Origin: a virus
Strand: one strand, 5' to 3'
Virus record (IMG/VR): IMGVR_UViG_3300017769_000051
Location: 1 to 34,299 of that record
Length of the DNA: 34,299 nt
Made by a program: the position numbers and the translations under genes. Below are positions 894-21,732 of the stretch, one piece after another (position 1 is the stretch's first letter; the number at the start of each line of letters is the position of its first letter). The notes under the pieces were generated by a model that was not told where the DNA came from, ran no database searches, and saw only the letters and a program-made list of their open reading frames with translations.

Positions 894-2591
894 ATGTGGA
901 ATAACAATTGGAAAAAAGGAATTGATTTCCCCGAATGGGGAGATACAGATGTGTATAAAAAAACAATATCAGGAGGTTATTTATTTAATGGTGAATCACC
1001 TAAAGATGCTTATATGCGAGTAGCAAGCAAAGTTGCTAAACGTTTATATAAACCAGAAATGACTGAAACATTTTTTGATTATATATGGAAAGGCTGGTTA
1101 TGTTTAGCTTCACCAGTATTATCAAACACAGGTTTAGACAGAGGTTTACCTATTAGTTGTTTTGGTATTGATGTCGCTGATAGCGTACAAGATATTGGAC
1201 AAAAGAATTTAGAAATGATGCTACTCGCAAAACACGGCGGCGGAGTAGGTATCGGTATAAATATGATTAGACCCGCCGGTGCAAATATAACAGGAAATGG
1301 AACATCAGACGGAGTTGTACCCTTCTGCAAGATTTATGATTCAACAATTCTTGCAACAAACCAAGGATCAGTTAGAAGGGGAGCTGCAAGTGTTAATATC
1401 AACATTGAACACAACGATTTTGAAGAGTGGCTTGAAATACGAGAACCTAAAGGAGACGTTAACAGACAATCACTTAACTTACATCAGTGCGCAGTTGTTG
1501 GTGACAAGTTTATGCGAAGGCTTGAGCAAGGAGATGAAGAAGCAAGGCGCAAATGGAGTAAACTGCTTAGAAAAAGAAAAGCAACTGGAGAGCCGTATAT
1601 CTTGTTTAAAGGAAATACTAACAAAGCAAATCCAAAAGCATACAAAGATAACGCACTAAAAGTGCATATGACTAATATATGTAGTGAAATAGTATTACAT
1701 ACAGATGAGTCGCATAGTTTTGTTTGTTGCTTATCAAGTTTAAATATAGCTAAATACGATGAATGGAAAAATACAAACATTATACATGACAGTATATGGT
1801 TCCTTGACGGCGTTTTGGAAGAATTTATACAACGCGCTAAATATAGAAAAGGTTTTGAAAATGCAGTTAGGTCTGCAGAAAAAGGTCGTGCCTTGGGCTT
1901 GGGTGTTCTTGGTTGGCACACTTATTTACAGGAAAAAAATATCCCATTTGAAGGCTTGCTTGCACAGTTTGAAACTCGTAGAATATTTTCACAAATTAAA
2001 ATTGAAAGTGAAAGGGCAAGTAGAAATCTTGCAGAGATATATGGAGAACCTTTATGGTGTCGCGGAACTGGTTTACGTAATACTCATTTACGTGCTGTTG
2101 CTCCTACTGTTAGCAATAGCAAGCTTAGCGGGAATGTGTCGCCAGGTATTGAGCCGTGGGCTGCAAATGTTTTCACAGAACAATCTGCTAAAGGCACTTT
2201 CATACGTAAAAATCCGACGCTAATAAAAGTATTAAGAAAACATAAGTTAAACAACAGAGATACATGGGATCAAATATTATCAGACGGTGGATCCGTCCAA
2301 AATATTAAAGGTTTAGACAAAAATACCAAAGAAGTATTTAAAACATTTAAAGAAATTAATCAATTAGAATTAGTTAAGCAAGCAGGTTTAAGACAACAAT
2401 ATATAGATCAAAGCGTAAGTTTAAACTTAGCTTTTCCTAATGAAGCAACTCCTAAATGGTTAAATAAAGTACATATGGACGCTTGGAAAAATGGTGTTAA
2501 AACTTTGTATTATATGCGTACGGAATCCGTACTAAGAGGAGATATTGCTGATAAAGCAATGAGTGAAGATTGTATTGCTTGTGATGGTTAG
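894..2591 (+). CDS. nrdA: Class I ribonucleotide reductase alpha subunit without ATP cone
   Basis: The catalytic large subunit, 565 aa. Residues that match the E. coli NrdA active site are visible: C89 in PISCFG (C225), N261-C263-E265 in NICSEI (N437/C439/E441), C278 in CCLSSLN (C462), the radical-transfer pair Y539-Y540 in TLYYMRTES (Y730/Y731), the APTVSNS substrate loop near 403-409, and a C-terminal C560-x-x-C563 tail in place of C754/C759. The protein starts directly at the helical and specificity region; the roughly 90-residue ATP-cone domain of E. coli NrdA is absent, and the total length is about 200 aa shorter. Loss of the cone is expected to remove dATP shut-off (inference). The leader has no Shine-Dalgarno sequence (TTTAATTAAT before ATG). 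The TAG stop overlaps the stop of the convergent peptidase gene. Confidence 0.96.
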   Translation: MWNNNWKKGIDFPEWGDTDVYKKTISGGYLFNGESPKDAYMRVASKVAKRLYKPEMTETFFDYIWKGWLCLASPVLSNTGLDRGLPISCFGIDVADSVQDIGQKNLEMMLLAKHGGGVGIGINMIRPAGANITGNGTSDGVVPFCKIYDSTILATNQGSVRRGAASVNINIEHNDFEEWLEIREPKGDVNRQSLNLHQCAVVGDKFMRRLEQGDEEARRKWSKLLRKRKATGEPYILFKGNTNKANPKAYKDNALKVHMTNICSEIVLHTDESHSFVCCLSSLNIAKYDEWKNTNIIHDSIWFLDGVLEEFIQRAKYRKGFENAVRSAEKGRALGLGVLGWHTYLQEKNIPFEGLLAQFETRRIFSQIKIESERASRNLAEIYGEPLWCRGTGLRNTHLRAVAPTVSNSKLSGNVSPGIEPWAANVFTEQSAKGTFIRKNPTLIKVLRKHKLNNRDTWDQILSDGGSVQNIKGLDKNTKEVFKTFKEINQLELVKQAGLRQQYIDQSVSLNLAFPNEATPKWLNKVHMDAWKNGVKTLYYMRTESVLRGDIADKAMSEDCIACDG

Positions 2592-3052
2592 ATAACTTTA
2601 TATTTAGTTTTATTATTAGAATCTTTATATGCTTTTAAACATCTATTACGATTATCATCTTCATTTACATAAGATACGTGAACCCAATCAGGATTTTTAT
2701 CCGTACCAAATTCCCAAATCATTTGATCATAATTTAAATTTTTTCTAATATAATTAAACATTTCTGCATTAGCGGCGTAAGCGTATGAATCATCAATATC
2801 AATTGCTTGCCCTTTACAATGTTGTGATTTAGAACTTCCTCCGATTGCTTGATTAAGTTCAGGCGAACGATAGAATGAATTGATCTTTATAGGGCCGTTT
2901 ACGTGCTTTCTAAGAGGCTCAAATATTTTTTCTGCAAGTAACTCCATATTTGATAAATGATAGCTATTAGGATCATTTTTTATTCCTAATCTTTTTGCAG
3001 TTATGCTATACACTCCCTCCTTATAATTTATATTTTTACTTATATTTTTCAT
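2588..3052 (-). CDS. M15 family zinc peptidase, probable endolysin
   Basis: A 154-aa single-domain D-Ala-D-Ala carboxypeptidase-like enzyme (VanY / peptidase M15 group) that would cut peptidoglycan cross-links. The zinc-site signature SxHxxGxAxD is intact: S76, H78, G81, A83, D85 in SQHCKGQAIDID, with the second His at H125 in DWVHVSY. The motif NSFYRSPELN (58-67) is the usual strand before the site. There is no signal peptide, so it should need a holin or pore to reach the wall; the one-TM protein at 3468-3788 is the candidate partner. It is the last gene of the leftward structural unit, with 4 bases between it and the thioredoxin-like gene. Its TAA stop shares bases with the nrdA TAG. It could instead be a virion-borne wall hydrolase, but the position among envelope genes favours lysis. 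Confidence 0.88.
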   Translation of the reverse strand: MKNISKNINYKEGVYSITAKRLGIKNDPNSYHLSNMELLAEKIFEPLRKHVNGPIKINSFYRSPELNQAIGGSSKSQHCKGQAIDIDDSYAYAANAEMFNYIRKNLNYDQMIWEFGTDKNPDWVHVSYVNEDDNRNRCLKAYKDSNNKTKYKVI

Positions 3053-3056
3053 TTAA

Positions 3057-3467
3057 TTAAAATGCTGACGCTGTATTTATTTCATTTATAGCTTCTTGTA
3101 TTTCTTCTATATCTGTTGGTAATAATAAATCTAACCCAGCTTTAAAAGATTCTTCTACACTGCCGTTTTTAAATATTAAAATAGTTGGTGCCATTCTAAC
3201 TCTATATTCTTTTTTTATATTTGGCGCTTTAGCAATATCAATTCTATAATATGTTGCGTCTTTTATCATTTCCCATTCAGCAAGACAATTTGCTTCATTA
3301 AACTTTGCCCAAAATTCTACTACTATAGTATCTGTATTGTCATCGCCAAAAGCACTAGAACTAGTAATTGCTTTTTCAAAATTAGAATCATCAAGCCAAT
3401 ATTTGTCTGGTACATCTGATTGTGCAATTGATAATAATGGTATTAAAATTAAAATAATATATTTCAT
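3057..3467 (-). CDS. Exported thioredoxin-fold protein lacking the CXXC motif
   Basis: A 136-aa protein with an N-terminal signal sequence (about residues 1-16, hydrophobic ILILIPLLSIAQ) followed by a thioredoxin-like domain. The fold is recognised by VVEFWAKF (49-56, where thioredoxin has FWA then the active site), YYRIDIAKAPNIKKEYRV (matching the helix 2/strand 3 region) and the cis-proline turn MAPTILIFKNG (P94). In place of WCGPC the sequence reads FNEANC: only one Cys (C61) remains, at or near the resolving position. It is therefore unlikely to be a normal dithiol reductant, and because it is exported it should not serve the cytoplasmic NrdAB. The ATG directly abuts the stop of the TM protein upstream (TAAATG). 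A structural, chaperone or inhibitor role in the periplasm is possible but unproven. Confidence 0.75.
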   Translation of the reverse strand: MKYIILILIPLLSIAQSDVPDKYWLDDSNFEKAITSSSAFGDDNTDTIVVEFWAKFNEANCLAEWEMIKDATYYRIDIAKAPNIKKEYRVRMAPTILIFKNGSVEESFKAGLDLLLPTDIEEIQEAINEINTASAF

Positions 3468-3788
3468 TTATCTGTTTTTTTGAATCTCGTAAAGTCTTTC
3501 ATCAATTTTATCTAATTGATCTTTTATATCTTCTACATCTTCTTGTGTATCCATAATAGTTTGACGAATTAATTCATCTTTTAAATCATATTCAACTCGG
3601 TCTATAACGGGCTTTGGTAATTCTTTTGCTTCTGCAATATCTTGTTTTAATGTAAACCACATACCCGCTAAGGTAACAATACCAGCAACAATCATACCAA
3701 TTGTTTTTAAAGATATTTTTACATCTGCTTTTCCATCTCCGTCGATGTCTAGCCCCATTGAAGTGTTTTCGTCTAATTGTTTTGCCAT
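3468..3788 (-). CDS. Single-TM coiled-coil membrane protein, holin or spanin candidate
   Basis: A 106-aa protein. It begins with a soluble segment that holds a calcium-loop-like DxDGDGxAD motif (residues 14-22, DIDGDGKAD), continues with one transmembrane helix (about 28-47, IGMIVAGIVTLAGMWFTL), and ends with a charged helix (66-104) rich in alternating D/E/K and I/L, a likely coiled coil. There is no cleavable signal. This layout fits small phage membrane proteins of the lysis cassette, either a holin-type protein or an inner-membrane spanin-like subunit, and the gene sits two genes before the M15 peptidase. The family is not recognised with certainty, so the lysis role is inference from topology and position. 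The gene is 6 bases downstream of the outer-membrane protein gene. Confidence 0.72.
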   Translation of the reverse strand: MAKQLDENTSMGLDIDGDGKADVKISLKTIGMIVAGIVTLAGMWFTLKQDIAEAKELPKPVIDRVEYDLKDELIRQTIMDTQEDVEDIKDQLDKIDERLYEIQKNR

Positions 3789-3794
3789 TTTATT

Positions 3795-5012
3795 TTATCT
3801 AAATGTGTAGTTAATTCCAAAATTTGAGTTAAATAGCTCTGAGTCCCAAAATTTAGTATATTCACCTTCAATAAATATACCTATTGATTTGCCAACTTTC
3901 CAGCCAAATATTAAACCTGCTTGATAATCTGTCCACTGTTCCCCATCTAATAAATTATTATGTCCTCCTTTTCCCCAGCTGTTTCTATGAAGATAACTGA
4001 AATCTTCATTACCTTGTATATAATGGTGATAAGGTAATATTACATTACCGTAAGCATGTAACCAAAAATTACTTTTATAATGATAAAAATCAAATCCAGC
4101 TATAGGCGCTATTTCTGCAAACGCATCTAAAACATCCCAAGCTTCATTATTAAATCTATTCATTAAAGAACCAAATATACGATCTCTAAAATCTCTATCT
4201 CCGTAAGCAACTATATCTCCATCAGGATTCCTCCATATCCAATCATAAAATTCTTCACCAGTATCTACATTAGTATATCTAGTAAATTCATCACTAAAAT
4301 CATAATAATAACCAAGTGAATACCAAGGGTTTACTGGGTACTCTATAACATTACCGTCGGGATCTAATATAGGATTATTATCTTGATCTGTTAATATTTC
4401 AATTTCATTTAACCAAATTTCAATTGGATTATATCCGTATGCTTTTTGATGGGTACGGTATATAGCGCCGGCAGATATACTAAACTTTTTACCTATTGGC
4501 AATCTAGCTCTTATTTCCCCTGACATATATTCAAAACCAACTTTTCCTTGCTCTCTATCCTCAAATTTAGCTATATGATATTTACCTGTATGTCTAACAA
4601 ATAATCTTTTATTAGTAAATTCATCTCCATTTACTCTTTGCTTTTCCCAATGTAATAAATATTCTAATCCTTTAACAGCAGAAGTAGGTGCTGATAACCC
4701 TGTATTATTTTCTGTACCATTATAAAAATTAGGTTTGCTTTCATATCCAAAACGCGCTAATTTACGTATACCTACGCCATATCTATAATCATATGGATGA
4801 TAAACTGTTTCATCTATAACGTCTGGTATTGCGTATAAGTCGTCTGGATTTGTTCTTATAAAATAATCTGGCTGTTCTAATTTAGCATTACCTATATTAC
4901 CAGCTACGTATACAGTCCCATACTTTAAAAAATCTTCGTATAAATCTTTAAAAAGCTGTGATTGTAAATTAAATGATATTAATAATATTAGTATAGTTAA
5001 AATTTGTTTCAT
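3795..5012 (-). CDS. Secreted outer-membrane beta-barrel-like protein
   Basis: A 405-aa protein with a clear signal peptide (MKQILTILILLISFNLQSQ) of the style common in Flavobacteriia. The mature part is rich in Tyr, Trp, Phe and Asp and has many alternating polar/hydrophobic strands joined by acidic turns (for example QDNNPILDPDGN near 211-222). The C-terminal stretch has amphipathic strands (AGLIFGWKVG, IGIFIEGEY, FGINYTF) and ends in an aromatic residue before a final Arg, as in outer-membrane barrel proteins. It is therefore likely delivered to the host outer membrane. Its ATG overlaps the stop of the preceding small basic gene (ATGA), so the two are probably coupled. Blocking superinfection, altering the outer membrane for lysis, or acting as a virion component are all possible; no specific family is recognised. 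Confidence 0.7.
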   Translation of the reverse strand: MKQILTILILLISFNLQSQLFKDLYEDFLKYGTVYVAGNIGNAKLEQPDYFIRTNPDDLYAIPDVIDETVYHPYDYRYGVGIRKLARFGYESKPNFYNGTENNTGLSAPTSAVKGLEYLLHWEKQRVNGDEFTNKRLFVRHTGKYHIAKFEDREQGKVGFEYMSGEIRARLPIGKKFSISAGAIYRTHQKAYGYNPIEIWLNEIEILTDQDNNPILDPDGNVIEYPVNPWYSLGYYYDFSDEFTRYTNVDTGEEFYDWIWRNPDGDIVAYGDRDFRDRIFGSLMNRFNNEAWDVLDAFAEIAPIAGFDFYHYKSNFWLHAYGNVILPYHHYIQGNEDFSYLHRNSWGKGGHNNLLDGEQWTDYQAGLIFGWKVGKSIGIFIEGEYTKFWDSELFNSNFGINYTFR

Positions 5013-5287
5013 TTTTTATTTCTTTTAACGTTTTTTACTCTTCTTGGTTTTCCGGCCGGTTGCCCTAATCTTTTTTTCTCGGCTATTTTAGCTCTTTTTT
5101 CTGAAGCTGACATTTCGCCGGATGTTTTAACAGTTTTAGATGATATTCTTTTGCTTGGCCTACAATACGGAGTTCCTCTGCTTTCGCCTTTACGTCTACC
5201 GCAAGGTTTGCCAGTTCTTACATCAATCCATTTTTCTTTAAACCAACGCCTAAGATTTGCACCTTTTTTAGTTTTTCTTACTGCCAT
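5009..5287 (-). CDS. Small Lys/Arg-rich protein with CGR and YCRPSKR motifs
   Basis: A 92-aa very basic protein. Visible elements are RRWFKEKWIDVRTGKPCGR (about 13-31), a second Cys in TPYCRPSKRISSKT, and a Lys/Arg-rich C-terminus (KNVKRNKK). I recall very similar short proteins in marine phages and in algal giant viruses, where they are annotated only as domains of unknown function (possibly DUF5872; not verified). The charge suggests nucleic-acid or acidic-protein binding. It is the last of five small basic genes that overlap head to tail, and its stop overlaps the start of the outer-membrane protein gene. The opposite strand has a hydrophobic open frame that is simply the antisense of Lys codons. 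Confidence 0.8.
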   Translation of the reverse strand: MAVRKTKKGANLRRWFKEKWIDVRTGKPCGRRKGESRGTPYCRPSKRISSKTVKTSGEMSASEKRAKIAEKKRLGQPAGKPRRVKNVKRNKK

Positions 5288-5516
5288 TTAATAATTTTTT
5301 TACTTTATTTCTAGTACATACCATTTTTTTAGCATAACTAGGGTTCTTTTTTCTATTAAAAACATATTGTTGATTTAAACTACCAACTATTTTACGCATA
5401 TCACCTTTTCTAGATTTAATCATCCATTTAGCCAACGCTCCACAAGATAAACTTTTAAATTTACCTTTTGCATCAGGTGCATCAGAGTCTTTAAATGTAG
5501 GTCTATTTTTTGCCAT
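5268..5516 (-). CDS. Small Lys-rich protein, two conserved Cys, paralog-like to next gene
   Basis: An 82-aa basic protein of unknown function. It contains SCGALAKWMIKSRKGDMRKI followed, about 40 residues after the first Cys, by VCTRNKVKKLL. The pattern Cys - KS.K - RKI - Q - KK - Cys - NKVKK also occurs in the upstream neighbour (5503-5784), so the two look like diverged duplicates. It overlaps the next gene (5009-5287) by 20 bases and its start lies 14 bases inside the end of the gene upstream, so the whole cluster is translated as a tight block. No enzymatic motif is seen. A virion DNA-associated or capsid-decorating role would fit the charge but is inference. Confidence 0.78.
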   Translation of the reverse strand: MAKNRPTFKDSDAPDAKGKFKSLSCGALAKWMIKSRKGDMRKIVGSLNQQYVFNRKKNPSYAKKMVCTRNKVKKLLNGSKKN

Positions 5517-5784
5517 GCTTTTTTCTAACTTTATTTTTACAAGCTGTAGCTATTTTTGACTGCCTAGGCTTTTTGCCATATCTAGCTCTTTGCTCCATTA
5601 CGGTTAATATTTGTATTTTTCTAGCAAAAGATTTACTGGATTTCATAACTTTACGGCATGTAGTGTTAGCATCTGCTACACTAGCATATTTAATACTAAC
5701 TGTATCTTTTGGGTTTTCGTCTGTATATAAACGTCTACTGCTGCCTTTAGGTTTTTTACCCGTGCCTTTTACTGGATCTGCCAT
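5503..5784 (-). CDS. Small Lys/Arg-rich protein with two Cys
   Basis: A 93-aa basic protein. The N-terminal third is a flexible Gly/Lys/Ser segment (MADPVKGTGKKPKGSSRRLY), followed by VADANTTCRKVMKSSKSFA and a C-terminal ATACKNKVRKKHGKK. The two Cys are about 39 residues apart, close to the spacing in the gene at 5268-5516, with shared RKI and NKVRK elements. The start codon overlaps the stop of the upstream gene as TAATG (5782-5786). Function is unknown. The high positive charge and short length are shared with all five genes of this block. Confidence 0.78.
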   Translation of the reverse strand: MADPVKGTGKKPKGSSRRLYTDENPKDTVSIKYASVADANTTCRKVMKSSKSFARKIQILTVMEQRARYGKKPRQSKIATACKNKVRKKHGKK

Positions 5785-5966
5785 TATTTTAATAAGCCTG
5801 CTTGTTTATAAGCTTTTGTTAATGATCTTTTAGGTAATTCATTTATATGAAATAAATTAACACTTTTTTTAGTATGTGTTTTTCCGCTCATAAGTTGCTT
5901 ACCTGTTTTATGTGTAGCACCCTTAAATATAGTGCCATCTTTTTTAAAGTGTGATACTCCCTTCAT
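5784..5966 (-). CDS. Tiny basic protein, 60 aa
   Basis: A 60-aa basic protein of unknown function, with repeated HK/THK elements (SHFKKDGTIFKG, ATHKTGKQLMSG, KTHTKKS) and a hydrophobic-basic C-terminus (KAYKQAGLLK). Unlike its neighbours it has no Cys. It is joined to both neighbours by TAATG stop-start overlaps (5964-5968 and 5782-5786), which strongly supports it as a translated gene despite its size. No known domain recognised. Confidence 0.72.
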   Translation of the reverse strand: MKGVSHFKKDGTIFKGATHKTGKQLMSGKTHTKKSVNLFHINELPKRSLTKAYKQAGLLK

Positions 5967-6105: not shown

Positions 6106-9100
6106 TTATTTTAATTTACGTGTTTTTAATTTTTTTATTTTTAATTTAGCATGATTTAACTTATTGTTTTTTGCAGTTAAACCTTCGTTGTCATCTTCTA
6201 TATTTAATTCCCAAGTTGACCAACCTAAAATTAATGCTACTCTTTGCCAAGCCTCTGCATCTGATGCAACCGCCGCTCTATAATTATCAAATAATCTTAC
6301 TACTCTATCTAAAGGAATATTTGTTCCAGCAGAAATTATTTGTGCAATAGCTAAATTAGCGGGATTTTTTAAACTTAAACCTTCATCTAATATTTTGTCC
6401 ATTTCATTATCAAAAGTATATCCTGCAGATCTTAATTTTGTAATTTTTGAATCTATAGGAGGGGATATATCTAATACTTTCCATGCTGCATCCGAAAAAT
6501 TTGGTCTTGGTTTTTGTGCTCTTTTTGCAATATCTATTAATATATTTTTTCCAACCATTACAGCATTTCCAGCAACACCTGTTCCTCTTAAAACAGAATC
6601 AACCATTCCATTTGCTACACCAAAAGTTTTATTATCATTAAATTCTTCATCTTCTTCTCCGAAGCCTATAGCAAATAAAGCTTGTTGTAATGCATTAAAT
6701 ATAAAGTTTTGTATAATGCCATAATACATTATTTTAGACATATTAGTTTTCCAATCACCTCTTCCAGCGGCTAAATCCTGTGCTCCTCTTTTCATTAACC
6801 TAGTATATTGCATAGGTGTATTAGCAAATGCTAATATAATACGACCAAAGTTGCTAGCCTGTTGCATGGATATTCTGTCAGGTCTACTAGATTGCTGTGC
6901 TTCTTCAGTTAGTTCTCTAAAATCTTGAAATGCTTTTTGTTCTGCTTCTTTTTGAGATAAACCTTGTTTCAAATATGTATTAATTCTATTTCTATAAAAT
7001 GTTGCGCCGCCATTCGCTATAGCAAAACTATCAGCACCTCTTGTTAATATAAATCCTTTATTTAATAAATAACTAATTACACCTCTAACACCGTTACGAT
7101 TTGCTTGCTCAGCAAGTTCAGCTTCGTTAACATTTAATTTTAAACCGCCTCTTCTTTCAACTAAAAAATCTGAATTATAAATAAATATAAAATCTTTCCA
7201 AAATTGCGGTTGATTAGCATACGCCTCGGCTGCTTTCAAAGGATTGTTATCAGACCAGTTTATATAATTTACTGTTGAAATCATTTGTAGCATAGCAGAT
7301 CTTACATTTAAAAACATAATAACACCTACTGAATTATTAATCCATTCTAGCCAAGCATTAATTTGTGCATTACCTCCACCGGCTCTATTTCTACCAGTTT
7401 TCATTCTTGATAATATATCTTCAAGCGCCACTCTATAAGATTTACCAAAAGCTGCTTCTAATTTATTTAAATTTTCTTCAGTAAATATTTCATTAACATT
7501 ATTTTTCCATTTTTCTAAATACTTAGCTCTTTTTGCTGTATTTAAATTTTCAAATAAATCTATAGTAATATTTCCCGAATCCCATGAATTACTTGGTTTA
7601 ACATAACCTTCTTTTTTACTTATTTTAATTAATTGATTTGCAAAATCTACTAATTCTTTATCTTTTGTAATAAAATTTACTAATTTTGTTTCGTCAGTTT
7701 TTGTTAATCCTGGAATTTTCATTCCTTGTTTATTCCATATGTATACTCTTACAGCATCTTGAATAGTATAATCACCATTTAATATTTCTTTTTTAAGAGT
7801 TTTTGGTATATCTTTAATTTGTGATTTAAGAGCTTTGAAATCATTCATTACCGCTATTCTTTCGCGGCTTAAATTTTCCATTGCAATACCATAAGGTCTA
7901 AATAAATTTTGCCTCATCCATTCCATAGCTTTATTACCTAAATCACCTTTTGGTAATAATGCATACATTAGCCCTTGAAAATCTTCAGCGCCATATGGTA
8001 TAAAAAAGTTCATAATACCTTTTTCAACTTTTTTACCTCTCATGGCTGCTTTTTTGGGCGAAAATCTTTTTTCACTTGCAAATTTAGCGCCCTTTTTTTG
8101 TTCTATAATATCATTTAAATCTTGGCTTAAATTAGATTCTATACTTTCTAAAGATTCTAAAGCAGTTCCATCGTTTTTTATATTATATTTTTGCTCAAAA
8201 TTTACGCCATCTAAATCTACTAAGTCTTTAAAATTAAATCCACCGTCAATTTTTGCTATAATTGGATTTGCATATCTTTCTAACCAGCTATTGTCAAATA
8301 TATTCCAGTTTCTACCCATTCCATTTTTATAAGAAACTATCTTATTATTTAAATCAAGATATTTACCACTATCTAATTTTTTATCATTTTTTTCAGATAT
8401 TGCTATTAATTTATAATTATCATATAAATTATCTAATATTTCTAAATAATATTCAAATCTTACAGAGCCAGCAGCTTGTGTTAAAAGACGGTATGCTCTA
8501 ACATTTTGTAAAGCATGCTCAAATTTTAATTTTTCATTTGAACCGTTTATAATTCTTAATAAAGCAGGTAAGTTATATCCTACAAATTCAGCTCCTTTCC
8601 TATGGAAATGATCAGCTTCACTTACAGCATTTTCTAAAAAATGTAATATTGGAGTAATATTATTTATATCTTCATCTATAGCCTCAAAAAGAGCTAGCCA
8701 GCCTTTATAAAAAGAATTTTTATTTATTTTATTTATTGCGTCTATTTTATCTCTATCCTTATATATTTTTATTAATCTTTCAGTGTTAAATTTACTAGAT
8801 GAATAAACGCCATCAATATCCTCGCCATAAGTATATCCTTGATTTTTTTTCACCCAAAATTTATCTTTTAAAATTTCTTTTTTTATCGCCTCTCTTAATT
8901 CTTTTCTTTTTAAAGAATTCTTTTTAAAATCACTTGTACTAAAAACACCTAATCCATTGTATAAAGTGCCTAAATTAAGTAAACCGGGATATTTTTTAAA
9001 TTTGGGTAATATATTTTTTCTAAATAACCTAGCATATTTTATAGCAGAATTTTTATCCTGAATATTAAACCATTCAGCTTCTAAATTTTCAGCAATTTTT

Positions 9101-12100
9101 TGATTTTCAACGCTTTGTAGTGCTTCGGCTTTTCCAGCTTCTAAATTTGCTCTTGATTGAGGGTCTAAAACAACTTCAGCTCTATAAATTTCATTTGTTA
9201 TAGCACCATCAAACATTTTTATAATAGATTTAATATTTTGTGATTGTGGTGATCTAGTTGAAATAACATCTCCAGGTTTACCTACTAAATTTAATAAATC
9301 ATTTTTAGTTGCATTTTCATTTCTAACAAAAGGCGCGAGCCCAGCTCCTTTAGTACCTCTTACTAGTTTAGTATATAATGGGCTATTTAATAAGCTTCTT
9401 GCGACTCCAGTTGTTGTTCCTAATAAATTTTCCGATGCTTTATCAGTTTCTATCACTGCGCCTTGTGGTCTAGTTTTTAATATTAAATCAGCATTTTTAT
9501 TTATAAACATTCTTCCATTTGTAATTTCTTGTTTTGTTAAATTACTTTTTGGATTAGTAAATTTAGATGCGGGCACATTAGAAACTTTTTCTGTTATAGA
9601 TGCGGTTATGTTTCCTAATTTTTTATAAGTAAGTTCTTCAGGATTTTTACCTTTAGAATTTTCTAAAATAATATTTTTAGCTTCTTCGTATTGCTCATTG
9701 CTAAATATTTTACTAGCTTTTGTTCTTTTAATATCTTGTGGCTCAGTTATTACTTCTTCTTCTTGAATAATTTCTTGAGTAGTTTGTTCGTTTATTTGTT
9801 GATCTATACCCTGTTCTATAGATTTTATTCCTAATCTTTGCGCTAAGTTATTAGCTCTTAAAAAACCTCTATTAGTAATAAACTTTTCAATATTTTGTAG
9901 CCCTTTAAATTCTTCAAATATCATTGCATGAATATCTGATTTCATGGTTTCTTTAAAAGTGCCTCTATCAACATCTTGTTTTGCATCGGGCGCTATTGGA
10001 TCATATAATGCTTTAGTTCTGCTTTCAACAAAACTATCTACGGTAGGTTTTACTTTTTCAATAATTGAATTTTCAATTTTAGTTTCAGATGGTGTTTTTT
10101 GATATGGCTTATTAAATTTACTTGCTAAATCTTCTGCTTCTTTTCGAGCTTTTTGTAAATTATTTATTTCATTAGCAACATCCTGTTGTATTTCGCTTGA
10201 TAATTTAGATTCTAGCGTTTCTTTCACATCTGTTCCGCCTGCAGAAGCAACGTCAGCAACCGCGGAGGCACCCGCTTCAACTACCTCTTTTGTTGTTAAT
10301 GGAACGCCATTAAAAGAATTGTATTTTTGCATTAATTCTAACGCATTTTTACCATTTATATTTTGTGGTAATCTAACAAATTCTTCATATTTATTAGAAA
10401 ATATATCACCAATTTTTTTAAAAAATCCAGCTTGCTCTAAATTTTTTATAGCTTGCAAAGGGCTTAAAACATCAGATATTGCGGTAAAAAATTCGTGAAC
10501 TTGTACGTATTCACTTTGATCTTTATAATCCTCTAATCTTTTTTGTATTTTTTTATATACATTTTGTATTTCAGTATCATTGCTATTTTTAAATGCTAAA
10601 TCAATTTCATTTTTTAAACCTAAACGATCTGCATCAGGCAAGCTATGAAAAAGCATGTGCAGAACTTCATGATGAACAGCGTTACCAGCTATCACACTAC
10701 CTTTTTCTAAAGTATTATTTAATATTCTTTCATCTATTATATATGCTGTAGTGCCATCTTTTGAAAGTATCGCGTTGTTGTTTCCGTTAAGCCAATCAAC
10801 AATTTTTTTATCTTTCAAATCATTTGGTCTATTATTTTTTATATATTGCTCTAATTCTTTTTTATTCCTTCTTCTAATAATTTGTTTATCAGCAAATATA
10901 CCTTTTCTTTTTGAATTTATAAAATCTATTAATTTTGAACCATTTGATATATAATTATTAACATATAATATTCCGTCCATTTGATCTTGAATATCTGTTA
11001 ATTTTAATTTAGTTTCATTTATTTCGTATTCTAAATCTAAATCGTTTGGGGTTTCCTTTAGTTGATTTTCTAAAGATTCTATTTTATCAAATATTTTTTG
11101 CCTAGCTAACTCTTGTTCAAAAAATAATTTCCTAGCATTAGTTTTTTGCTCATTTATTTCAATCTCTTCTGAACTTAAATTATTAAATTTACTATTTTTT
11201 GTTAAACTTTCAGCTATATCTATTTGTTTTAATAAATCTAATTTTTTATTTTCAGATATATTTTTATCATTTTTAATTTCCTTGCGCATTTGTTTAGATA
11301 TAGCGCTAACGCTCTTTGGATCAGTTAAAGCCGTAAATTCAGCCATTCCTTCGTTATAAGCTATATTTGTTCCAGCAATCGATGTTTGAATACCGCCCGC
11401 ACCAATAATTGTTTGAGCTGTAGTTTCTAATAATAATTCAGCTGTTATAGGATCTTTTGCGGTACTTGCAGAAATTATTTCTTGAGCATTTTCTGTTATA
11501 ACTTCTCCAAGCGTTGCTAATCCTTGATATTTTGCTGCTTTACCTATTTCTTTAAATCTGCCCTTTAAAGCTCTTCTCCATGCATCCCTTGGTATAATCT
11601 TTGTTGCTGCTCTAGCTATTCCCGCCGCCCCTAAAAAATCTAATCCTTGATTAACAACGCCTACGGTAAAAGATTTATCTAATATATCTTCAGCTCTACC
11701 GTCATTTATTATATTTAAAAACGCTTCACCTTGTTCATTTTTAGATAAACGTGCGAAAGCTTCCTCTGACAAATTTAAATCTTTGGCCGCTTGCTTAGCT
11801 AACATTCTTTCCATAACATTTCCTCCTTCTTGAAAAAACGTAGCTCCAAAAAAACTAGATAACATTTGAGGCAATTGTTCTCCCATTATTTGCGGTATTT
11901 CTCTTGCTTGCAAATCAAGTTTTCCGTTTTTAAAAATTTGAGCTTTTTCAAATTTATTTATAGCTTCCTGTATTTCAGCTGCTTGTTCAAAGTTTTCAAA
12001 CCATAACTTTTCAATTCGAGCTTTTTCATTTTCATAATATTGCAAAGCGTCTTCTTTTGTTTTTCTTTCGGCCCCTATAGTATAGCCTTCTTTTCGAGAA

Positions 12101-12498
12101 TAACGGCCTCCTACTAAAAACGAATTAACATCAGGATTGTTATTTATAGAATTTATTTTTTTATTAATTTTAGTTAATTGTTCACCATATGCCATCATTG
12201 GTCCTTGCGCGGCAAAACCTTTATAAACATTTTTAATACCTATTCCTACAGATTCAAAAATATTCGGTAATTCTTTTGGTTTAGAAGAATTTTCATAATT
12301 AGATATATTTTGTTTTAAAATATTTATTGCTGCTTGTTTTTGACTATCACTAGGTAATGCTTTAGTGTATTTAAGATAAAACTTATCTATTGCTTGATTA
12401 GGCTCTAAAGTTAATGCATATTTAATTTTTTTATTAACTTCGTCAGATGTTAAATTTTTAGCGTACTTGCCATATAATAATTTAAATAATTCTTCCAT
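6106..12498 (-). CDS. Giant internal/ejected virion protein with HExxH metallopeptidase motif
   Basis: A 2130-aa polyvalent-type virion protein, probably carried in the head and injected with the DNA, as for the largest internal proteins of T7-like and crAss-like phages. The N-terminal part (to about 430) has Gly/Ala-rich helices (NQGLDFLGAAGIARAATKI) that may cross membranes. A zinc-peptidase motif HEVLH lies at residues 610-614 with a plausible third ligand at E669 (VHEFFTAISD), the arrangement of gluzincin-type domains. The middle is Lys/Asn-rich and helical. The C-terminal region (about 1700-2080) has the well-conserved aromatic and Gly segments (VGVIMFLNVRSAMLQMIS, RIILAFANTPMQYTRLMKR) seen at the end of many phage polyvalent proteins. 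It lies 10 bases after the 509-aa internal protein. Sure as a virion giant protein by context; peptidase activity is inference. Confidence 0.82.
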   Translation of the reverse strand: MEELFKLLYGKYAKNLTSDEVNKKIKYALTLEPNQAIDKFYLKYTKALPSDSQKQAAINILKQNISNYENSSKPKELPNIFESVGIGIKNVYKGFAAQGPMMAYGEQLTKINKKINSINNNPDVNSFLVGGRYSRKEGYTIGAERKTKEDALQYYENEKARIEKLWFENFEQAAEIQEAINKFEKAQIFKNGKLDLQAREIPQIMGEQLPQMLSSFFGATFFQEGGNVMERMLAKQAAKDLNLSEEAFARLSKNEQGEAFLNIINDGRAEDILDKSFTVGVVNQGLDFLGAAGIARAATKIIPRDAWRRALKGRFKEIGKAAKYQGLATLGEVITENAQEIISASTAKDPITAELLLETTAQTIIGAGGIQTSIAGTNIAYNEGMAEFTALTDPKSVSAISKQMRKEIKNDKNISENKKLDLLKQIDIAESLTKNSKFNNLSSEEIEINEQKTNARKLFFEQELARQKIFDKIESLENQLKETPNDLDLEYEINETKLKLTDIQDQMDGILYVNNYISNGSKLIDFINSKRKGIFADKQIIRRRNKKELEQYIKNNRPNDLKDKKIVDWLNGNNNAILSKDGTTAYIIDERILNNTLEKGSVIAGNAVHHEVLHMLFHSLPDADRLGLKNEIDLAFKNSNDTEIQNVYKKIQKRLEDYKDQSEYVQVHEFFTAISDVLSPLQAIKNLEQAGFFKKIGDIFSNKYEEFVRLPQNINGKNALELMQKYNSFNGVPLTTKEVVEAGASAVADVASAGGTDVKETLESKLSSEIQQDVANEINNLQKARKEAEDLASKFNKPYQKTPSETKIENSIIEKVKPTVDSFVESRTKALYDPIAPDAKQDVDRGTFKETMKSDIHAMIFEEFKGLQNIEKFITNRGFLRANNLAQRLGIKSIEQGIDQQINEQTTQEIIQEEEVITEPQDIKRTKASKIFSNEQYEEAKNIILENSKGKNPEELTYKKLGNITASITEKVSNVPASKFTNPKSNLTKQEITNGRMFINKNADLILKTRPQGAVIETDKASENLLGTTTGVARSLLNSPLYTKLVRGTKGAGLAPFVRNENATKNDLLNLVGKPGDVISTRSPQSQNIKSIIKMFDGAITNEIYRAEVVLDPQSRANLEAGKAEALQSVENQKIAENLEAEWFNIQDKNSAIKYARLFRKNILPKFKKYPGLLNLGTLYNGLGVFSTSDFKKNSLKRKELREAIKKEILKDKFWVKKNQGYTYGEDIDGVYSSSKFNTERLIKIYKDRDKIDAINKINKNSFYKGWLALFEAIDEDINNITPILHFLENAVSEADHFHRKGAEFVGYNLPALLRIINGSNEKLKFEHALQNVRAYRLLTQAAGSVRFEYYLEILDNLYDNYKLIAISEKNDKKLDSGKYLDLNNKIVSYKNGMGRNWNIFDNSWLERYANPIIAKIDGGFNFKDLVDLDGVNFEQKYNIKNDGTALESLESIESNLSQDLNDIIEQKKGAKFASEKRFSPKKAAMRGKKVEKGIMNFFIPYGAEDFQGLMYALLPKGDLGNKAMEWMRQNLFRPYGIAMENLSRERIAVMNDFKALKSQIKDIPKTLKKEILNGDYTIQDAVRVYIWNKQGMKIPGLTKTDETKLVNFITKDKELVDFANQLIKISKKEGYVKPSNSWDSGNITIDLFENLNTAKRAKYLEKWKNNVNEIFTEENLNKLEAAFGKSYRVALEDILSRMKTGRNRAGGGNAQINAWLEWINNSVGVIMFLNVRSAMLQMISTVNYINWSDNNPLKAAEAYANQPQFWKDFIFIYNSDFLVERRGGLKLNVNEAELAEQANRNGVRGVISYLLNKGFILTRGADSFAIANGGATFYRNRINTYLKQGLSQKEAEQKAFQDFRELTEEAQQSSRPDRISMQQASNFGRIILAFANTPMQYTRLMKRGAQDLAAGRGDWKTNMSKIMYYGIIQNFIFNALQQALFAIGFGEEDEEFNDNKTFGVANGMVDSVLRGTGVAGNAVMVGKNILIDIAKRAQKPRPNFSDAAWKVLDISPPIDSKITKLRSAGYTFDNEMDKILDEGLSLKNPANLAIAQIISAGTNIPLDRVVRLFDNYRAAVASDAEAWQRVALILGWSTWELNIEDDNEGLTAKNNKLNHAKLKIKKLKTRKLK

Positions 12499-14893: not shown

Positions 14894-17800
14894 TTAACTA
14901 CTTATACTAATCTCAGAACCAACTGAGTAAATTTCTTTTAACGAGGTTGAAGTTGTTTTCATTTTTGTTTCTGCAAAATAACCTAAAAGACCAGAAGTAA
15001 AAAATTTTGCGTTCTTAACATAAAACATATATGCTGATGATTGAGGTGCCTCGCCTGTATTAGCAATAGTTATTGTTTTATTAGTTTTATTTATAGCTGT
15101 AATTTTACCTAAATCTTGTTTAAGGCTAGATCCATCTACATAATATAAATTATCATTTACCTGAATATCATCATTTAAATTAAAATTAAATGTAAATATT
15201 CTATTGCTTCCTGAAATAGCCTGTGATGTTAAATTACCAATACCCTGTACATTTAAAGCTTTAACATCTACTGTATTTTCAGTTTCTTCAATACCTGATA
15301 TATAATTATAGTATTTGTTTTCTTTTTCTATAAAAGAACTAACATTTCCGTCTTGTTGATCTGTTACTATACTATCGCAATTCCATCCGCTACTGCCTTC
15401 GTAATTTAAAGTTCTAAAGTTTTTAATATTAGCAGGTGCTTCATTTAACAAGAATGTTACCTCTGGATTACCCGCTACGCTATAAAAAGTATTTCTTGTT
15501 CCTGTATGATGTTCAAATATATGTCCATTTTTAAACGTAAAATATTTACTATTAATACTTAAACCTCCTTCAGGTAAAAATGATTTTCTACTTGGCCAAC
15601 CATTTATTGATTCAGAAAATGAAACGGTTGTATTAACACTTGTAGGCAAGCTAACATTATATTGATTTTTTTTCTCGTCATACGATCCGTATATAAATCC
15701 CGTTTGAGCTCTTAAATTATCTTTAAAGTATCTTTTCATTCCGTAACCAGAAATAGCTTCCATACCATCTCCAGAATGTCTTACAACAACTCCATTTTTC
15801 TTATCAACAAAGTAACCTCTAAATGTATAATCTGCAAAGCTTTCAGGGTTTTTACCAATACCGTAATTAGAGTTATATGGTACTGATTGTCCTAATACAG
15901 CTTTATTTGATGTAACATTTACACTTCCATCTGCATTGAATAATGCATCTTTATTTGTTAATATTTTTAACACTTTATCTTCACAATATGCAATTATATC
16001 ATTATATCTAGTATGTAATAACTGTATACTGCCATAATCAGGATTTAAATCTTTTGTTATTGATTCTGCTATAATAAATTGATTTAATCTATTAATACCA
16101 GTTTTGCCATTGTATATTTGTGAAAATATTAATCCTGATTTTAAATTTTCTTCTTGATAATTATCTTCAAATACCGTTGATACCCTTACGCCTTTACCTA
16201 ATGCAGGTGCATTAAAATCATCTCTTATTACAAATGATTCAACACCATTTCCAAAACTAAAGCAATTATAGTAAGATAAAGAATTTTCGTTACCATGATC
16301 AGAAGAAACTGTAAAGTTTTCTTGCGTTTCATAATATATATCTATATCTACGTCGTCTTTTGGTTCAACCTCAAATATAGGTGGGTTAGTTATATTTTGT
16401 AAACTATCTGTTTTAAATTCATGTACTATTATAGAAAATTTATGAGGTATACTACTATCATTAGAACCTGTTTGATTCATAAAGGCAGGTAATCTGCCAT
16501 CTAAATTTCTATCTAATCTTATTGTCCAAAATCTTCTACCATCTGAATGATCTCTAATATCAACTTCTTCTATTTTATAAAACGTATTATCAGCAGCGCC
16601 ATCGTTTTTCTTTTTATTATGAAAGCTTAAATAGTTACCGGCTTTTAAATTTAATGCAAAAGCATGCGTAGAATACGCAGATTCAGTATCACTAAAAGGC
16701 ACTGAGGTACCTATAGTAAAATGCCATCCTTTAGTATGATCTAGTACAGGTGAGCCAAATGATGTATTAGTCGTAGGTGAATCATTAAACCCACCGCTAT
16801 TAACACTAGTGCTGTTTGTAGTTGAAGAATTAGCGCCGTGTTGTCCACCAGCCCTTATACAATACTGTCTATCTGGATTACTGGGTGATCCCGATGTGCT
16901 GCTAGAATTAAGAAAATCGCCGTCTACACCCTGAGTTGCAGATATTGCATTTAAGTTTTCAGTATTAGTTCCTTTTAATCCTGCTAATAAATTATTATCA
17001 GCTTTTAATTTAAGAAAAAATCTACCCTCAAATTCTGCACTACCAGTTTTGTCTTTTTGTTCTAACGCAACCATCATTCCAAATACTTTAGCGCTTGTTT
17101 CATTGCCAACGTAATCCTCGTATAATATTAAAACATCATTACCAAACTCTTCTTCAAAATGTACTTCAATATCATCACCTCCTATGCTGTGTATTTCTAT
17201 GGATTTTACAGTATAAATTTCTGATTCTGCTTCGCCTCTTACAAATTTTACTTTTTTACCAGGGGATATTGCGTCAATTGCTTGGGACGACGCCCCATGA
17301 TCACCTAATGCGAAAGTACTTCCATCATCTATTGCGGTATCGCCAACTTTAAAAAAGTCCATTAAAGTAATTGTATTACTATTAGGTACAGGCGTAGAAC
17401 CAGCTTTTATAGTTGTTTGTTCAGTACCATCCCCAAACTGAAAGCTATATGTAAATTTATGTGGCCTATATGCTACTTCTAATGGTTTTGATAAAAATCC
17501 CGGAGGCGTGGTTAGTTTATCTAATACTTTAAACTTAGTTTTTATATCAGACGCTTCAGTTCCCGTTTTCTTTTTTAATAATAATATATCGTTTTCTTGT
17601 ACTTTATTTATTTCAGAAGAAGGAAAAGATACATACATATACCCGTCTTCATCTTGATAAAAACTATCTGCACAAATATTATAATTAACTGAAGATATTT
17701 CTTTAATAAAATATTTATAACTTTGAAAAGATGGCGCTGATGATGTTATTTTAGCTGTAAACTTTGTATTATCTTTAGCTTGACCAAATGGTACTTTTAT

Positions 17801-20215: not shown

Positions 20216-20908
20216 TTATGATTTTTCTTGTGAAACATTTTTTACGTCTTCGCCGCTAGCTATTCCATATAAGGAATTATCTCTTAATATTATACCGGCT
20301 AATGCTAGTATTTTTATTACAAGTTCTGTTTCTTCTGATTCATGCAATTCAAAGTTTGTAGAATTACCCGCGTCGTAAGTTCCTGTTACGGAATTTGCTG
20401 CCCATGAAACAGAAGCAGGTTGTTTTATATAGTTACACGTAACACCTGAAGTTTTTTGTTCTAACGCGCCTGCCACATTCTTGCCATAAACTTTTATTCC
20501 ATTTTCATCTCTAATATATATAGGAAAATCATTGTTAGGTTGTGCAAGAGGAGCTTGCGTTACGTAGATATAATCTTTTTGACTTATAGATTCTGCCTCA
20601 GCGCCATTAAAAACTACTGAACCTAATCTATATAAATCTGAGGGTAATGTTGTTCCGCTATTAACAGCTTGTCCAACTTTTTCAAATACACTTATTTTTT
20701 CTTCTAAAATATCAATCATATCAGAATACTCCGTATCATTACCCGGTATTCTTAAAAATTGATTAATATCATAAAAATATTGCTCAAATATATCTAATTG
20801 AGCTTGGTTTGCTAAATAATTAAACTCTTGAGCCGTTATAAAACCTCTTTGTTCTTTATTCGTTATAGCTAATACCCTTTGGTATACTGTATTTACATTT
20901 ACACTCAT
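20216..20908 (-). CDS. Connector / ring structural protein candidate (230 aa)
   Basis: A 230-aa protein. The N-terminal part TVYQRVLAITNKEQRGFI, QEFNYLANQAQLDIFEQYF and the TEYSDMIDILEEKIS segment form a conserved helical block I recall from crAss-like phages, where homologues are virion ring or adaptor proteins. The middle is beta-rich and ends with a helical stretch (ETELVIKILALAGIIL). It follows a hairpin (20923-20956) and precedes the 293-aa connector by 3 bases, so these two genes and the tail protein form one translation block. Structural role is well supported by context; the precise ring is not. Confidence 0.7.
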   Translation of the reverse strand: MSVNVNTVYQRVLAITNKEQRGFITAQEFNYLANQAQLDIFEQYFYDINQFLRIPGNDTEYSDMIDILEEKISVFEKVGQAVNSGTTLPSDLYRLGSVVFNGAEAESISQKDYIYVTQAPLAQPNNDFPIYIRDENGIKVYGKNVAGALEQKTSGVTCNYIKQPASVSWAANSVTGTYDAGNSTNFELHESEETELVIKILALAGIILRDNSLYGIASGEDVKNVSQEKS

Positions 20909-20922
20909 TATATTTTTATTAT

Positions 20923-20956
20923 AGGTTAAAGACCTGCAAAAGCAGGCCTCTTACCT
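20923..20956 (-). terminator. Long hairpin between the 255-aa and 230-aa genes
   Basis: On the transcribed (minus) strand a stem of about ten pairs (including two G-U) closes a UUUU loop at 20938-20941, and four more pairs (20923-20926 with 20953-20956) follow after one mismatch. The 3' side runs into UCUUU and then AACC, a weak U-tract. It fills most of the 56-base gap, so it is either a partial terminator/attenuator or a processing site that sets lower expression downstream of the capsid genes. Confidence 0.65.
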
Positions 20957-20964
20957 ACAATTGC

Positions 20965-21732
20965 TTACTTTAATTTTTTTTCAACATTTTGAAATACTTC
21001 AATACCTTCGTCGGTTTTAAAATATGCTGTTAATGCTGAATATGGATTTTCATCAAATGGAACTGTCATAAGCTTTCTATCATTTGAACCCCACATAAAT
21101 GTTCTATTGTCATTAGAAAGTTTAATTATTCTAGCCTCTACAGCTTTTATGCCAATATTTCTAATATTTATGTCGTCGTCCTGTGCTAATTCTAAAAATA
21201 GTTTAGGATTGTTTCTAGCAAATAATAATAAATCTCTTTTAACCTCCTTAGAAGTCATCGTAGATACCTTATTTCCAAGCTCAGACCTTAATATTGCCTC
21301 AGCATGATCAATTTCTATTTTTTGTGCTAGATTTAAAGCTTCTATTTCAATTTCTAAATAGCTAATATCATCTTCTGCTATTTGCACGGGGTTGTATTCT
21401 TCAAAAGTTCTTCCATTATCTTTATGATAATCTAAAAATTTTTGTAAAGTTTGTTTTTCTTTTGGTACAAAAAGTTGACCATCTCTAAAAATAATATGAC
21501 TTAATCTTTCAGGCCCTTTCATTTCATCTACAAATATTGTTTTTTGATTTTCACAATATTTAATTTCTCTTTCGTAGCCTTTTTTTTCGTCATACCATAA
21601 CATGCCTCTTGATTTTAATATGTATACAATAGGTGTTTTTTGTAATGTTAATTGGTAAACTTTATCTTTTATTTGTGGTACAGCTTTTTTAGGCTGCTCA
21701 GTAGCCACTTCTACTTTTTTGTTTTTTGCCAT
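20965..21732 (-). CDS. Uncharacterised protein downstream of the capsid gene (255 aa)
   Basis: A 255-aa protein of unknown function. After a charged flexible start (NKKVEVATEQPKKA) there is a beta-rich part (KVYQLTLQKTPIVYIL, GMLWYDEKKGYEREIKYC, IFRDGQLFVPKEKQTLQKFL) and then a helical half (KVSTMTSKEVKRDLLLFA, NPKLFLELAQDDDINIRN). The C-terminal stretch (TVPFDENPYSALTAYFKTDE) is compact. I recall similar proteins beside capsid genes in marine phages, where they are unnamed. The gene is flanked by hairpins on both sides (21762-21793 upstream and 20923-20956 downstream), so it may be expressed as its own unit. A head-completion, decoration or accessory role is possible; none is shown by motif. 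Confidence 0.72.
   Translation of the reverse strand: MAKNKKVEVATEQPKKAVPQIKDKVYQLTLQKTPIVYILKSRGMLWYDEKKGYEREIKYCENQKTIFVDEMKGPERLSHIIFRDGQLFVPKEKQTLQKFLDYHKDNGRTFEEYNPVQIAEDDISYLEIEIEALNLAQKIEIDHAEAILRSELGNKVSTMTSKEVKRDLLLFARNNPKLFLELAQDDDINIRNIGIKAVEARIIKLSNDNRTFMWGSNDRKLMTVPFDENPYSALTAYFKTDEGIEVFQNVEKKLK

Follow-up and report, generated by a model that had tools for sequence, protein, structure and literature searches.

The DNA analysed here (the window) is the IMG/VR virus record IMGVR_UViG_3300017769_000051, positions 1–34,299 (34.3 kb), probably a genome fragment, from a podovirus-like phage. Its large terminase (738 aa) shares 62% identity with that of MW202828 and about 44% with that of Flavobacterium phage elemoE, and parts of the DNA also match Cellulophaga phi38:1 and Maribacter phage Panino. 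An uninterrupted ORF of 405 codons fills positions 3795–5012 on the minus strand, the plus strand of this interval being rich in stop codons. Its product, OMP, is encoded together with two smaller proteins, TMC and TRX (Table 1). The first-pass annotation had placed OMP between virion and lysis genes, which agrees with the gene for a 2130-aa protein upstream and the M15 peptidase gene downstream, but TMC and TRX, which it did not mention, intervene. Four small basic genes between the 2130-aa gene and the cassette are absent from some relatives; their consecutive products (5009–5966) are Lys/Arg-rich, one being DUF5872, and relatives repeatedly encode comparable basic proteins (DUF6321 and others) around the cassette. 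Ribonucleotide reductase genes occupy positions 60–2591 of the window on the plus strand, opposite to the cassette.

Table 1. Features of the OMP-TMC-TRX locus in the window
Feature	Position	Strand	Basis
OMP, 405-aa secreted protein, predicted outer-membrane beta-barrel, 12 long strands	3795..5012	minus	ORF, alignments, AlphaFold2 model
OMP signal peptide, about residues 1–19	4956..5012	minus	cleavage site placed from alignment
OMP residues 189–297, insertion between barrel strands 7 and 8	4122..4448	minus	model
OMP last barrel strand, residues 392–402, followed by the aromatic C-terminal end	3807..3839	minus	model
TMC, 106-aa single-TM protein, putative periplasmic coiled coil, probable N-in topology	3468..3788	minus	
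TRX, 136-aa thioredoxin-fold protein with signal peptide, without CxxC	3057..3467	minus	
M15 peptidase, endolysin-like, directly downstream of the cassette	2588..3052	minus	
2130-aa virion-type protein upstream of the cassette	6106..12498	minus	
Four small basic genes (92 aa DUF5872, 82 aa, 93 aa, 60 aa)	5009..5966	minus	

OMP begins with a signal peptide of the Bacteroidota type (MKQILTILILLISFNLQSQ). Among 40 aligned relatives (49–77% identity), the M[K/R] start is present in 40/40 and the A/G/S-x-Q-like end in 39/40, so that the Sec signal peptide pattern expected of outer-membrane beta-barrel proteins is retained in 39–40 of 40. The C-terminus, FGINYTFR, is of the aromatic type found in outer-membrane barrels, and the last three residues are TFR, TLR, TLK, or TFK in 90 of 104 non-redundant relatives. 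A single-query scan of IMG/VR returned 62 loci with 46–75% identity, and a profile scan returned 543 matching stretches. Alignments of 40 and 105 sequences contained invariant residues over the whole chain, which, together with the existence of relatives in IMG/VR, indicates that the ORF is not a chance occurrence. The signal peptide and aromatic C-terminus described by the first-pass annotation were thereby confirmed for a minus-strand gene.

AlphaFold2 models of OMP were built from 40 sequences (pLDDT 72, pTM 0.62) and from 105 sequences (pLDDT 83, pTM 0.72). Both contain 12 long strands, an even number as in outer-membrane barrels, taken from the strand count rather than from barrel closure in the coordinates. 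Searches with Foldseek and VIA-align returned nearly exclusively outer-membrane barrels, and the top PDB matches of both models were without exception of this kind. The best matches included the 12-stranded channels KdgM, NanC, and Tsx for the first model (Z 13–14), and CymA, OmpG, and Tsx for the second (Z 10–12). With Z values up to 14, low global TM-scores, and no one family ahead, the matches define the barrel class but not a subfamily. Enzyme barrels (OMPLA, omptin) matched at about the Z of the channels, and this assignment was set aside, with no catalytic pattern established. The only likely relative among viral models was the unnamed A0A516LKJ4 (24% identity, E 2.7e-25), the remaining matches being generic barrels. 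The residues that face the lumen are charged and vary less than those that face lipid (entropy 0.63 vs 1.05 bits). By itself, the inward/outward hydrophobicity pattern of the strands is weak, being reached by 93 of 2000 shuffles. The insertion at residues 189–297 is ordered (pLDDT mostly 88–96) and largely conserved in both alignments, with a conserved helix at 272–294; judging from strand parity, it is probably extracellular. The models thus predict with high confidence that OMP is an outer-membrane beta-barrel, as had been proposed; a soluble or virion fold, named beforehand as the outcome that would contradict this, did not appear, and the signal peptide speaks against OMP being part of the virion.

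OMP had zero matches in Pfam, NCBIfam, and PADLOC (a library of bacterial defence rather than phage exclusion genes), and no significant match in PHROGs, PDB sequences, or 50,697 phage records. Membership of the Tsx, KdgM, NanC, or CymA families accordingly found no support from Pfam, NCBIfam, or PDB sequences. By profile, OMP was absent from the cultured relatives MW202828, phi38:1, elemoE, Panino, and immuto; the same profile does detect it in contigs that carry it. A scan of a genome collection located OMP only in five contigs of metagenome-assembled genomes, all phage-like by gene order. Matches in genomes labelled ‘Woesearchaeota’ or ‘Alphaproteobacteria’ (L065, L066, L067, L068) were rejected as host genes because of this gene order, and these contigs appear mis-binned. 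Capture of the gene from a host had been raised earlier; no homologue was found by profile in a shallow sample of 394 other Bacteroidota genomes (best four candidates per genome), and recent capture is therefore not supported.

To examine the linkage of the three genes, we inspected loci fetched via each of them. OMP, TMC, and TRX occurred together in 136 of 140 loci fetched via OMP; the exceptions were one locus with OMP and TMC and three with OMP alone, all four probably cut by contig ends, judging from their coordinates (e.g. L005, L098, L145, L019). Among newly fetched loci, 69/76 obtained via TRX and 74/76 obtained via TMC were complete, and in the nine others the match lay no more than about 0.8 kb from where the locus starts; these counts are no census, since they derive from the best 80 matches each and the sets share contigs. 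The genes run OMP-TMC-TRX in 266 loci and TMC-TRX-OMP in 17; the OMP-TMC gap has a median of 3 bp, and TMC and TRX overlap. TMC covaries with TRX (r 0.81) more than OMP does with either (r ~0.37). The cassette is present in podovirus-like and T4-like phages, the latter (L030, L038, L049, L060, L232) having a terminase of about 524 aa vs 738 aa in the window; that of L049 shares 58% identity with Flavobacterium phage immuto. As the OMPs of the window phage and the T4-like contigs are nevertheless about 50–60% identical, the cassette was probably transferred among lineages of phages with similar hosts. We conclude with high confidence that OMP-TMC-TRX constitutes one near-obligate cassette, widespread but unnamed in marine Bacteroidota viruses; a literature search found no description of it in the papers covered.

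TMC consists of about 17 residues, one TM segment (a single TM in 98/100 relatives), and a coiled coil of about 59 residues. An N-terminal TM followed by a periplasmic coiled coil is the i-spanin layout, which TMC shares if, as predicted, its coiled coil faces the periplasm. TMC lacks cysteine in 96/100 relatives, and with OMP also mostly cysteine-free (85/104), the intermolecular disulphide of two-component spanins is not expected here. A weak similarity of TMC to PHROG 739 ‘Rz-like spanin’ (E 0.066; best 0.011; 6/30 members at 0.1) was left out of the evidence, since PHROG 739 also has matches in all 14 control genomes. Assignment of TMC as a holin was likewise rejected, as two large relatives (G413 and G415) carry a separate phrog_3427 holin. 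Next to TMC, many loci (e.g. L048 8584–8907, L008 7221–7526, G413 20844–21164) encode a TMC-like paralogue marked by the conserved motif EFRIKWPRGEMGALPDDAKQDLRI (phrog_20984), which has distant relatives in Pelagibacter phages. TRX has the thioredoxin fold, scoring above the cut-off of Pfam PF00085 (E 3.3e-7), and lacks the CxxC active site in 101/101 relatives; the cis-proline region is kept (MAPT), and the C-terminal residue is Phe or Tyr in all relatives. The missing CxxC and constant terminal Phe/Tyr suggest that TRX serves in binding, not in redox chemistry. G412 encodes another secreted thioredoxin-like protein (15392–15745), far from the cassette and with an intact CxxC (WCKHC).

The genomic neighborhoods were examined in 104 non-redundant loci, which were chosen for having all three genes and are therefore uninformative on linkage. 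The M15 peptidase of the window matches PHROG ‘endolysin’ (E 2.7e-30). An M15, endolysin-like c27, DUF5675, or holin gene lies near the cassette in 81/104 loci, a raw count without control for chance proximity that agrees with the location of spanins in or near lysis gene clusters; individually, M15 was found in 64, holin phrog_3427 in 11, endolysin-like c27 in 9, and DUF5675 in 7. The cluster of the 2130-aa virion-type protein is near the cassette in 66/104. In the genome type of the window, M15 is downstream of the cassette; in the reversed-order type (TMC-TRX-OMP), the succession OMP-M15-phrog_3427 holin recurs in most of 11 loci; and in the T4-like type, the cassette directly follows nrdB-nrdA, with small two-TM proteins and then a phrog_33083 endolysin-like or DUF5675 gene on its other side. 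Ribonucleotide reductase genes thus accompany the cassette both in podovirus-like phages, on opposite strands, and in T4-like phages, upstream, the upstream position being seen in L040, L046, and L054. In L042, where the cassette is not beside nrd genes, a PAP2-family phosphatase gene (8126–8773) follows shortly downstream.

We then searched for the lipoprotein that a canonical spanin would need. A lipobox as in o-spanins is absent from OMP and TRX, and the window contains no plausible lipoprotein; we therefore do not file the cassette as a canonical spanin and claim only that it works in a spanin-like manner. G413 (67.4 kb) and G415 (69.1 kb), comparable in length to other large members and of unproven completeness, yielded no lipoprotein-like ORF of at least 30 aa in any frame by pattern scan, and hence no canonical o- or u-spanin was found there; their phrog_3427 holin is far from the cassette. 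By simple pattern, G413 encodes no exported proteins beyond those of the cassette. The same kind of scan finds one plausible lipoprotein each in G408 and G409, close to the cassette. The 4.5 kb downstream could be inspected in 82 loci with sufficient sequence, of which 35 have a lipoprotein-like ORF in this interval and 47 have none. One such lipoprotein (cluster c11), Asn/Pro-rich and a possible o-spanin or accessory, is encoded downstream of M15 in about a fifth to a quarter of loci (e.g. L008 8891–9298, G408 31112–31552, G409 48376–48786). Cultured relatives without the cassette encode a protein, close to genes for lysis or packaging, that combines an N-terminal TM with C-terminal alternating strands and an aromatic end (MW202828, L069 35390–36013; elemoE, L071 15605–16159; Panino, L072 27701–28357), which might be a single-chain inner-to-outer-membrane protein.

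A survey of spanins found none in about 13% of genomes, including Croceibacter and Bacteroides phages; it lists spanin-less flavobacterial and Bacteroides phages, names an outer-membrane protein as a possible o-spanin, and describes disulphide links as near-universal in two-component spanins (PMC6139136). A later survey detected no spanins other than unimolecular ones in Bacteroidetes phages (PMC12596118). Neither text, in the parts consulted, describes a barrel-based lysis system.

From the computed features (barrel fold, signal peptides, single TM, cassette, lysis neighbours, and no lipoproteins in two large relatives), we infer a physical complex of OMP, TMC, and TRX, its topology, its timing, and a disruption of membranes. 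The three proteins would form one apparatus late in infection that breaches the outer membrane in the final step of lysis. TMC, as the i-spanin-like part, would have its anchor in the inner membrane and extend its coiled coil into the periplasm; the OMP barrel would substitute for the o-spanin lipoprotein in the outer membrane; and TRX, without redox cysteines, would be a periplasmic adaptor joining the two. After removal of peptidoglycan by the holin and M15 endolysin, the complex might collapse and thereby fuse or tear both membranes. To this reading, a spanin-like envelope bridge in which the barrel replaces the lipoprotein, we assign a probability of roughly 0.45. It is supported by the near-obligate linkage, the lysis neighbours in three genome types, the layout of TMC, the presence of a holin but no lipoprotein-like ORF in G413 and G415, and the survey's spanin-less phages and its mention of an outer-membrane protein as possible o-spanin (PMC6139136). 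Against it stand the position after nrdB-nrdA in T4-like phages, the lack of cysteines in TMC, the good conservation of all three proteins, a conserved charged lumen more in keeping with a channel than with a passive anchor, the looser covariation of OMP, and the separate lipoprotein, a potential o-spanin, in a sizeable minority of loci. Of the three functions originally suggested, the strongest support now goes to preparation of the outer membrane for lysis, with a superinfection block and altered uptake retained as possible roles. The earlier interpretation of OMP is thus partly supported; what it had missed, that OMP is one third of a near-obligate cassette, decides how its function is read.

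Known spanins are small and variable, and we know of none with a barrel or thioredoxin fold. The two-component spanins lambda Rz/Rz1 and T4 PseT.3/PseT.2 share with the cassette the i-spanin layout, genes that overlap or abut beside holin and endolysin, and a partner for each membrane. They differ in that their outer partner is a small lipoprotein rather than a 405-aa predicted beta-barrel, and the cassette adds a third, thioredoxin-fold protein, a cysteine-free TMC, and high conservation. Unimolecular spanins (T1 gp11) would share the outcome, outer-membrane disruption, whereas the cassette has neither a lipobox nor a single chain across both membranes. The 12- to 14-stranded channels and autotransporter barrels (KdgM, NanC, Tsx, CymA, OmpG, EspP) resemble OMP in predicted fold and charged lumen, but OMP has a long conserved insertion, belongs to a phage cassette, and shows no similarity to them detectable in PDB, Pfam, or NCBIfam sequences. 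Lom-type and other phage-coded outer-membrane proteins are, like OMP as modelled, phage-made outer-membrane barrels. Unlike thioredoxin PF00085, TRX has a signal peptide, no CxxC, and a constant C-terminal Phe/Tyr.

The conserved, charged lumen could alternatively mean that OMP is a narrow, substrate-selective channel importing a nutrient (e.g. nucleosides, phosphate, or acidic oligosaccharides), TMC and TRX being its accessories in the periplasm. Structural matches to KdgM, NanC, and Tsx, then to CymA, OmpG, and Tsx, as well as ribonucleotide reductase genes ahead of T4-like cassettes, are in line with import, which we nonetheless consider unlikely: diverse barrels score about equally and thus indicate no single substrate, the cassette has no inner-membrane transporter or binding protein, TMC having only a single TM, and its lysis neighbourhood is left unexplained. 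Outer-membrane or envelope proteins serve superinfection exclusion in other phages, and OMP, with its long, ordered, probably extracellular insertion, might similarly block or mask a receptor while TMC and TRX stop DNA from crossing the periplasm or inner membrane. This is about equally doubtful, because three co-inherited envelope layers exceed the needs of known exclusion systems, an arms race predicts highly variable outer loops whereas the insertion is mostly conserved, and adjacency to endolysin fits lysis better; PADLOC also gave no match, although its scope is bacterial defence.

A division of labour, in which TMC and a lipoprotein (cluster c11, c13, or c16) make up a two-component spanin of the usual kind, with TRX assisting, and OMP has another job, would account for the downstream lipoproteins in 35/82 loci and in G408 and G409, and for the closer covariation of TMC and TRX. 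It seems improbable given the 47/82 loci without such a lipoprotein, its contig-wide absence from G413 and G415, and an OMP as constant as TMC. That OMP belongs to the virion or the DNA-ejection machinery, forming an outer-membrane conduit at entry, is suggested by its proximity to the 2130-aa gene in 66/104 loci and is highly improbable: the conserved Sec-type signal peptide indicates export from the infected cell instead of packing into virions in the cytoplasm, and its neighbours in T4-like phages are nrd and lysis-type genes.

The cassette bears on how the outer membrane is breached by phages that lack recognisable spanins, among which flavobacterial phages have been listed. The spanin-like reading provides a defined three-gene candidate for this breach, common in ocean viromes. 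More tentatively, the cassette may be a lysis apparatus of a new class, spread across unrelated marine Bacteroidota phages, with an outer-membrane barrel that takes over from the spanin lipoprotein and is linked to an inner-membrane coiled coil by a redox-dead thioredoxin fold. Should it prove to be a channel or exclusion device instead, it would still be a widespread, unnamed, phage-built envelope complex in the host.
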